Translations under genes and position numbers: made by a program
Notes under the pieces: model-generated
Told to the model about the DNA's origin: nothing
What the model saw: only the letters and a program-made list of their open reading frames with translations
The model's database searches: none
Part shown: piece after piece, positions 32,159 through 34,464 of the stretch
Layout of the letters: each line of letters begins with the position of its first letter
Numbering within the stretch: position 1 is the first letter of the stretch
Assembly: GCF_023256325.1 (NCBI RefSeq)
Contig: NZ_JAGDXI010000015.1
Span: forward strand, 20,305-84,304
DNA length: 64,000 bases
Reading direction: 5' to 3'
Source of the DNA: Caldisphaera sp.
GTDB taxonomy: Archaea; Thermoproteota; Thermoprotei_A; Sulfolobales; Acidilobaceae

Positions 32159-32184
32159 TATTGAGAGTTAAAAAGGGGTTTTGA

Positions 32185-32530
32185 TTGAACTGACCTCTCC
32201 CTGCCCTAAAGGGCGAGGGTTCCCTCAGAGCGGATCATGGGTTTGTGGTTTACCGCCTTCATTTTCATCACTTCATAGCTAGTTGGTAGATTTAACACCC
32301 ACATCGCTCTACTCGTTTAACGGTAGACCAATGGCTAGGTCTTCAGCCCATTACCCCTATCCCTCACCACGGAGAACCATCTACTCCTAGATTCTAGGGA
32401 CTCGGGGATATGTAGAGCCCTTATCAAGCATCCCCCTATGGGGACACATTTTTCTATACTTTAAAACGTTTTAGAATTTACAATTTTTATTTTGCCCCTG
32501 GAAGGGGGAGGCTTGTCGTTTTTTGTCAAA
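32185..32530 (-). mobile_element. ORF-less IS200/IS605-type relic/MITE with TnpB 3' end and omegaRNA-like right end
   Basis: Minus strand GAGGGAACCCTCGCCCTTTAGGGCAGGGAGAGGTCAG matches the IS605-family right-end hairpin. The preceding frame reads YEVMKMKAVNHKPMIRSEGTLAL*. The other end has the hairpin GCCTCCCCCTTCCAGGGGC. Interior GC is much higher than its flanks. Confidence 0.7.
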
Positions 32531-32760: not shown

Positions 32761-34464
32761 CTATCCCGTGCAACTAGAGTAATTCCAGTCCGGATAATTA
32801 CTACCTGAAGATACTCCTGAGACATATGAATTTGGCCATTGTGAAGACAGAAACAGACCTGTAACACCTGTAAAGTTTGCCAGGCTGGACGATTGCGGTA
32901 CAATAACTAGGTACCAGTTGACGTTAGTCCATATAGACTCGTATGTGAAAAGAGGAGTGGTGCGTGCTCTTGGTATATAACAAGTCAATGCATAATTAGA
33001 GAAGTCAACATTAAATGTAACAGAGTAATTTTTTATTGAATAGCTAGTAGGTGAAAAGTTAGGAAGAATTATAGTCGGAGGAGTATTATCTAAGAATTCG
33101 TTGCTAAAGGCCTTACCGGAAACACTAGAGCCTTCAAAATTAAAAACCCAAGTAATGTTGTCTATATAAACCATTGTTCCGCCTACATTAATTGTTTTCA
33201 TTGGATTGGCTGAACCACCTATATACTCAGAACCAATTGGTACCGTTATTCCTACATTTACTGTTGGAAGGCTTGATCCAAGGGCTATTGATATACTATA
33301 ACCAGAGATCTCTGACGTAGGTGCTGGGAACCAGCTTGTACCATATAGGTTGCCACCAGGTTCTATTATAAAGGCGTTATTGTTTCCTTTCTCATACATC
33401 TGATAGCCATAATAGTAGTCAATAGCACTAGTCTGCCGTTCTTCCCTTCCGTTATTATTATACATTGTAGGACTTTCTAAATAGCTTTCATACCCTATCA
33501 CATTATTTATAACCATCGAAGAAACGCTCAAGCTCGTATATATACCATGAGGAACTTCGATACATGTGTCCCAATAAAATGTTCCATTACCATCACTATA
33601 TCCTGGGATTCCATATTGTGGAAAGGTAGAACCAAACTCTGGGGCCGCCCAAAAGAATGTATAGTTTTCTTTTGTTGCAGTTGCTGTGGGACTATTACCT
33701 GATGTAAAGTTCTCATATGCCGCATAACATGGATCCAAGGGATCATTGCCTGATATTCCAGCATTACCTTGTTGTCCTAGGCCAAGTAAAAGATTTATAT
33801 AGAACTCTGGGAATTGAGATAGATAAACCGGTCCTATTATAAACCCCCCAGGTCTTACCCACTTAGCAACAAAAAGTACTGCCTCTTGGGAATTTAAAGG
33901 TACAAGAGGTATGCTGAAAAAATAAGGATTTGAGTCAGGAAAGTCAATCATAGCAACTTCATTAGAAGCCTTAGCCCAAGCATAACCCAATAAAAATTCC
34001 GCAACTTTACTATATGTAGCATTTGCAAAAATTGTTACCAAGTCTCCTCTTCTTATAAGCATGCTGAGTTCATTTACAGTGAAGCTTGAAAGGTTTAATA
34101 TAATGATATTGCTTGGATCACTTTTAACAATGCTTGAGTTTACATAATTCCAGTCAACTATAATGATACTATCGTTAGGTGTTTGCTGCAACTGCTGAAT
34201 AGATATACTCATAACAGGAGGACTAAGACCAACGCTGCTAAAAGCATTATTAATGGATTTTAGCAACTGTTGAGATCCCACCACATATACAGGTAAGCTA
34301 CTGTTAGCCGATATATTACTCACTAGTATTGTACTATTGCTTTTTCCTTGACTAACTACTTCTTGAGTAACTTTCCTATAAGAAATATTAGTAAGCACAA
34401 TAATGGTAATCAGTATTATTAGAAATAAGGGCGCTAAAAACTTTACGGTCTTTACATTGGCCAA
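32761..34464 (-). CDS. secreted/membrane-anchored surface protein, uncharacterised
   Basis: One N-terminal hydrophobic helix (FLAPLFLIILITIIVLT), many N-x-S/T sequons, Ser/Thr/Asn/Tyr-rich, GC-richer than neighbours. Confidence 0.65.
   Translation of the reverse strand: MANVKTVKFLAPLFLIILITIIVLTNISYRKVTQEVVSQGKSNSTILVSNISANSSLPVYVVGSQQLLKSINNAFSSVGLSPPVMSISIQQLQQTPNDSIIIVDWNYVNSSIVKSDPSNIIILNLSSFTVNELSMLIRRGDLVTIFANATYSKVAEFLLGYAWAKASNEVAMIDFPDSNPYFFSIPLVPLNSQEAVLFVAKWVRPGGFIIGPVYLSQFPEFYINLLLGLGQQGNAGISGNDPLDPCYAAYENFTSGNSPTATATKENYTFFWAAPEFGSTFPQYGIPGYSDGNGTFYWDTCIEVPHGIYTSLSVSSMVINNVIGYESYLESPTMYNNNGREERQTSAIDYYYGYQMYEKGNNNAFIIEPGGNLYGTSWFPAPTSEISGYSISIALGSSLPTVNVGITVPIGSEYIGGSANPMKTINVGGTMVYIDNITWVFNFEGSSVSGKAFSNEFLDNTPPTIILPNFSPTSYSIKNYSVTFNVDFSNYALTCYIPRARTTPLFTYESIWTNVNWYLVIVPQSSSLANFTGVTGLFLSSQWPNSYVSGVSSGSNYPDWNYSSCTG

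Follow-up and report, generated by a model that had tools for sequence, protein, structure and literature searches.

A short, protein-free IS200/IS605 element with a predicted TnpB guide-RNA scaffold beside rpr2 in Caldisphaera, and its relatives in other archaea

The window, a stretch of 64,000 nucleotides from a Caldisphaera contig, carries an ATP-dependent DNA ligase gene followed by the gene for the RNase P subunit Rpr2/Rpp21. Beyond the stop codon of rpr2, at a distance of 31 bp, lies a 335-bp non-autonomous IS200/IS605 element, which occupies positions 32190-32524 of the minus strand and is located 3' of a TTGAC target. The limits of the element were set by alignment with 16 further copies of the same design (type I) and with full IS605 elements. 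In it, a tnpA-type left end is joined to the 3'-terminal ~260 nt of a tnpB gene and to the right end. Along the minus strand, TTGAC (32529-32525) was followed by the left end and its hairpin, an A+T-rich segment, the GTGTCCCCATAGGGGGATGCTTGATAAGGGC hairpin pair and a scaffold of 226 nt, which started with CTACATATCCCC and finished in the right end (...CCCTCGCCCTTTAGGGCAGGGAGAGGTCAG), beyond which the flank TTCAATCAAAACCCC began. An adjoining gene (32761-34464, minus strand) encodes a 567-aa protein with no Pfam match, and in a congener (G003, locus L078; genomes, contigs and loci are given by G, C and L numbers) the interval from rpr2 to the methyltransferase gene showed no counterpart of it.

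The hairpin GCCTCCCCCTTCCAGGGGC, the right end GGAACCCTCGCCCTTTAGGGCAGGGAGAGGTCAG and the TnpB-like codons ...KMKAVNHKPMIRSEGTLAL with their stop, to which the original prediction had drawn attention, were all present on the minus strand, on which all the following features lie. The target and presumed TAM (32525-32529) is shared in the form (T)TGAC by almost all copies, and the outer flanks differ. The left-end subterminal hairpin GCCTCCCCCTTCCAGGGGC (32494-32512) showed partial erosion of the 3' arm relative to other copies (TCGCCCCTTCCAGGGGCGGGG). A TATA-like box in the left end, TTTTAAA (32460-32466), may act as a promoter; across copies, the GTGTCC hairpin was preceded by an AT-rich box at 15-21 nt and in most of them by a second box at 31-38 nt. 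The type I junction (32415-32447) consisted of the hairpin GTGTCCCC-ATAG-GGGGAT and a second small hairpin, GCTTGATAAGGGC, started at the second zinc-finger Cys codon region of tnpB and was common to all type I copies across genera. The predicted reRNA/omegaRNA scaffold (32190-32415) overlapped both the 3' end of tnpB and the right end, and within it the TnpB C-terminal coding tail (32206-32412) was a remnant with two nonsense codons, reading HIPESLESRSRWFSVVRDRGNGLKT-stop-PLVYR-stop-TSRAMWVLNLPTSYEVMKMKAVNHKPMIRSEGTLAL-stop. This tail was homologous to the C-terminus of intact TnpB in other archaea, as the proposal of a TnpB C-terminus with a broken frame had implied. The right end GGAACCCTCGCCCTTTAGGGCAGGGAGAGGTCAG (32190-32223) contained a subterminal hairpin and was about one G shorter than the consensus GGGGAGGAGGTCAG. 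The first 16 nt of the flank, TTCAATCAAAACCCCT (32174-32189), form a potential guide, as the original prediction had proposed, and are placed after GGTCAG as in known reRNAs. The eroded left hairpin and the slightly shortened right end were counted against the explanation preferred below.

Subterminal hairpins at both ends, the left one partly eroded in the window copy, together with a fixed short target that is not duplicated (judged from four related insertions), are features of IS200/IS605. The length of 335 bp, too short for a transposase, the near-terminal palindromes, the lack of terminal inverted repeats and the IS605-related ends are those of PATEs. The element was not an autonomous IS200/IS605 element and was filed only as a non-autonomous derivative, because no Y1 TnpA was found in cis or in the assembled genome. 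A strict MITE, with terminal inverted repeats and target duplication, was rejected as well, since the empty sites lack a duplication; with that restriction on the term, the suggestion of a MITE moved in trans was the option supported. The presence of both IS200/IS605 ends without a transposase was borne out by alignment with related copies and full elements, and we regard the assignment as a non-autonomous, PATE-like type I element as highly probable.

Fourteen places in the Caldisphaera genome (G000), the window copy included, matched the element, and the best of the other 13 had an E value of 7e-64, so the window element is not due to chance. Short copies with both ends fell into two main designs. 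In type I, the second zinc-finger Cys codon region of tnpB is fused to the tnpA-type left end and followed by another small deletion; 17 copies were found in seven genomes of three families (f1, f11 and f3), namely two in G000 (the window and contig C41), eight in G079, at least two in G138, two in G208, and others in G013, G132 and G045. The right end was damaged or unrecognised in four of them (L041, L189, L190 and L191). Type II, which retains a long stem, begins at the first zinc-finger Cys codons; it is multi-copy in G094 and also occurs in G000. The copies were gathered by scaffold-based searches, so that the share of short both-ended elements without a scaffold is biased; at least two loci (L032 and L155) were shorter and had lost part of it. 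Full elements of ~1.74-1.79 kb, with Y1 TnpA followed by TnpB, were present in Marsarchaeota (L105), in G094 (L161) and at L162, L169 and L170, and shared ends, target and tail with the short copies; L171 contained both genes with an unrecognised left end. TnpB relatives that share this tail and right end were found in Methanomethylicota, Marsarchaeota, Caldivirga, Thermocladium, Desulfurococcaceae and Archaeoglobi, and related ends, on whose occurrence elsewhere the original prediction depended, were common in archaeal genomes. The term "solo relic" was therefore too weak for a multi-copy, multi-genus non-autonomous family with related insertions whose sites are empty in relatives.

Several further loci were recorded. 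Downstream of rpr2 in a sister species (G004), a degenerate related scaffold (L077:1950-2108, plus strand) lay on the opposite strand relative to rpr2 and seems to have inserted near this gene independently. A minimal fused element of ~50 bp in all, with the left hairpin running straight into GGGGAGGAGGTTAG, was seen at about 2820-2871 of L101, and a tandem pair of scaffold copies with a run of N between them at G000:C10:44631-45129 (L039). A shorter scaffold relative of ~140 nt occurred on an IMG/VR viral contig (L224:2040-2183) and at many loci of G101, G089 and G054.

To search for empty sites, the joined flanks of short copies were compared with sister genomes. The site of the type I copy L137 was empty in G013, with 62 of 62 bases identical through the junction. 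The sites of L157 and L205 were empty in G143, and that of L160, a more diverged site, was empty in G132, with an exact match at the junction, and with greater divergence in G143, where the target reads TTGGC. In these four related insertions, which include one of type I, the target (TTGAC) of the empty site joined the flank directly without duplication, which is a signature of IS200/IS605. For L158, neither G143 nor G132 had an empty site; the two flanks matched ~545 bp apart, and the insertion may thus predate the split of these genomes. For the window copy itself the comparison with relatives gave no empty site, the nearest ones (L077 and L078) being too different around rpr2 and L077 consisting partly of N. 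Judging from its ends, the element was probably moved in trans by TnpA.

The structure of the scaffold was evaluated with a 226-nt model built from 18 copies and containing 66 pairs; the consensus fold was RIBOSUM-scored, and the default RNAalifold consensus on alignment A3 was poor. The window scaffold scored 218 bits with the covariance model R1, within the range of intact elements. In the 17 type I copies, 89.3% of cells were paired compared with 38-48% for slid partners, and 58 two-sided changes were counted against 26.7 ± 4.6 in shuffles. The 19 intact or near-intact elements gave 93.8% of cells paired and 46 two-sided changes against 13.5 in shuffles. Kinship of the copies inflates these shuffle tests, and the alignments used to count pairs had been fitted to the structure. 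In the eight G079 copies alone, 92.6% of cells were paired, but pairs with a two-sided change did not exceed the shuffles (206 of 500), which was counted against the preferred explanation. The tnpB tail contained stops or frameshifts in seven of 11 readable type I copies, and the pairing stayed. A conserved structured scaffold from the 3' end of tnpB and the right end, as defines reRNA/omegaRNA, was thus found, and the covariance model, the covariation and a match to Rfam sot0042 all agree with the predicted scaffold. By this comparison, the protein-free copies keep what is predicted to be a complete TnpB guide-RNA scaffold.

An Rfam scan of the window at the gathering threshold returned tRNAs only. 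Against the window scaffold, sot0042 (RF02656) gave an E value of 3.2e-8 with 37.7 bits, below its gathering score of 88, and HgcC (RF00062) an E value of 0.0017 with 24.5 bits, below its gathering score of 50. Both were full-length though sub-threshold matches to scaffold and right end, were stronger for the intact element L105 and lend the RNA independent support. A structured RNA of some other kind does not account for the region, since these two best-matching families carry the same right-end sequence. The Rfam orphan family HgcC ends in this right end (...CGCCCUUUAGGGCGGGGAGGAGGUCAG), and its scaffold matches lay at L105:3342-3511, at 32177-32298 of the window and at L137, L138 and L157. 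HgcC RNAs are probably TnpB reRNAs.

The main alternative is that the short copies are passive deletion derivatives, moved in trans by TnpA, whose RNA has no role and whose scaffold is kept only through recent descent from intact elements or through repeated gene conversion. This is a distinct possibility that we hold at less than an even chance. It agrees with tnpB tails that are still open in the type I copies L137, L138, L141 and L156 and with the divergence among the eight G079 copies, in which left hairpin, spacer and scaffold showed mean pairwise differences of 14.5-18.7% and the scaffold (14.5%) evolved hardly more slowly than the spacer (16.0%). However, the junction hairpins of the same copies were nearly invariant (2.1%), frame-broken copies still showed pairing and two-sided changes, the 3' sequence kept exceeds the end hairpins alone, and the whole scaffold was kept in two different short designs.

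The scaffold tree places solo copies with TnpB or full elements resident in the same host, and this was counted both for the alternative and for the explanation preferred below. Solo copies of G079 and G013 grouped with TnpB elements from these two genomes (100/98), those of G094 grouped with the full elements found in that genome (93/84), and the window copy was placed with type II copies of G000 (95/96); the bootstrap had not settled, so these groupings are suggestive only. The 5' part, unlike the scaffold, followed the type across genera, and the TnpB-only elements of G079 and G013 had a different left end. This mosaic pattern might suggest that recombination keeps scaffolds local or that similar deletions arose repeatedly; the former is favoured because the junction is shared.

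Intact TnpB elements with the same right end, for which the original prediction had proposed a search of the genome, were found in other archaea. No TnpA or TnpB of the family was found in the assembled 1.518-Mb Caldisphaera genome, whose contig ends may hide some, and this was counted against the explanation preferred below. Two contigs, C3 (13594-13648) and C50 (1-55), terminate in the same 55-nt right end but differ in their flanks, so recent multi-copy, possibly full, elements may be missing from the assembly; the end of C45 and C26, also of G000, are contig ends inside or close to elements. G079, a single contig with eight type I copies, encodes a full-length TnpB of this family (L140), but no matching TnpA was found there, so these copies may no longer be able to move, which was likewise counted against that explanation. 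The RuvC pattern was read in 24 loci (including L105, L140, L162 and L170), and in all of them the TnpB kept the RuvC Asp (DLG), a Glu at an alternative position (ExxxxxxCxxC) and the last Asp. A TnpB lacking the RuvC-II glutamate was considered and rejected, as this residue sits at the alternative position, a placement reported for Fanzor-like TnpBs (PMC10711439). One archaeal TnpB is functional when its reRNA is supplied from a separate plasmid (PMC11043419). For the potential guide, an 18-nt form had no other exact match in the own genome or IMG/VR, and no second target within one mismatch was found in the own genome; off-site matches did not exceed chance.

These results suggested an explanation that combines movement of a PATE-like type I element in trans with use of its RNA by TnpB in trans, and as a whole we consider it likely. 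An internal deletion in an ancestral TnpA-TnpB element would have removed tnpA together with the greater part of tnpB. What remained would be the left end and its promoter-like region, a pair of small hairpins, the complete scaffold that overlaps tnpB, and the right end. The element would be moved in trans as single-stranded DNA by a Y1 TnpA belonging to its family and inserted 3' of (T)TGAC without target duplication, the pattern displayed for the family by empty sites. A transcript might start in the left end, cross the right end and continue into the flank, and a TnpB of the family present in the host might take up the RNA in trans and cut the vacated donor site (TTGAC and flank), whose repair would restore the element. 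Use of the guide RNA in trans by TnpB is given close to an even chance, slightly on the lower side. A spreading family is indicated that may borrow proteins from its full-length relatives. The broader notion that type I and type II are transposable stand-alone guide-RNA genes, parasites of TnpA for movement and of TnpB for retention through cleavage of the vacated site, with scaffolds that stay matched to the TnpB of each new host, is plausible yet unlikely.

In-place internal decay of one full IS605 copy into a single dead relic would fit the two nonsense codons, the eroded left hairpin and the lack of a transposase nearby, but is very improbable given the same fusion at a second site of the own genome (L041) and in six other genomes; an origin from a single copy at the window site was rejected, the junction being shared among copies. 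Least probable of all is a domesticated host regulator, in which a nuclease-dead TnpB-like protein is brought to its host target by a fixed guide RNA: guide-RNA regulators derived from TnpB exist (TldR, PMC13418256), but here the guide lacks a second genomic target within one mismatch, flanks differ at every copy, the TnpB of the family keeps its D-E(alt)-D residues and the congener G003 (L078) has no element at rpr2.

If the trans-use explanation is true, a TnpB guide RNA can itself serve as the cargo by which elements without proteins are maintained, which would be a natural equivalent, acting in trans, of the TnpB homing model. Filled sites and closely related empty ones occur in the G079/G013 and G094/G143/G132 groups, which opens the idea to direct testing. 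The results also suggest a possible explanation for HgcC as an old archaeal RNA family. Short PATEs with tnpB tails are already known, and no description of the cross-genus, structured, protein-free form was found in the searchable literature, outside which most subscription papers lie. Like the PATEs of Haloquadratum and Halanaerobium (e.g., HqIRS71 and a 271-nt PATE-like element), the present elements have near-terminal palindromes and a relation to IS605-type elements, and lack terminal inverted repeats and target duplication; unlike them, one fused design recurs across several genera with a complete covarying reRNA scaffold. Left end, target, scaffold and right end are shared with the full IS605 elements of the family (L105, L161, L162, L169 and L170), which differ in their greater length and in having tnpA and tnpB. 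The whole-length matches to HgcC and sot0042 in scaffold and right end differ from true family members in falling below both gathering scores. As in the reRNA/omegaRNA of ISDra2 and of S. islandicus TnpB7, whose target adjoins a TTGAT/TTTAA-type motif (PMC8612924, PMC11043419), and as in archaeal sotRNAs, the 3' end of tnpB and the right end are combined with a guide from the flank; in contrast to known reRNAs, the RNA predicted here has no tnpB in cis.
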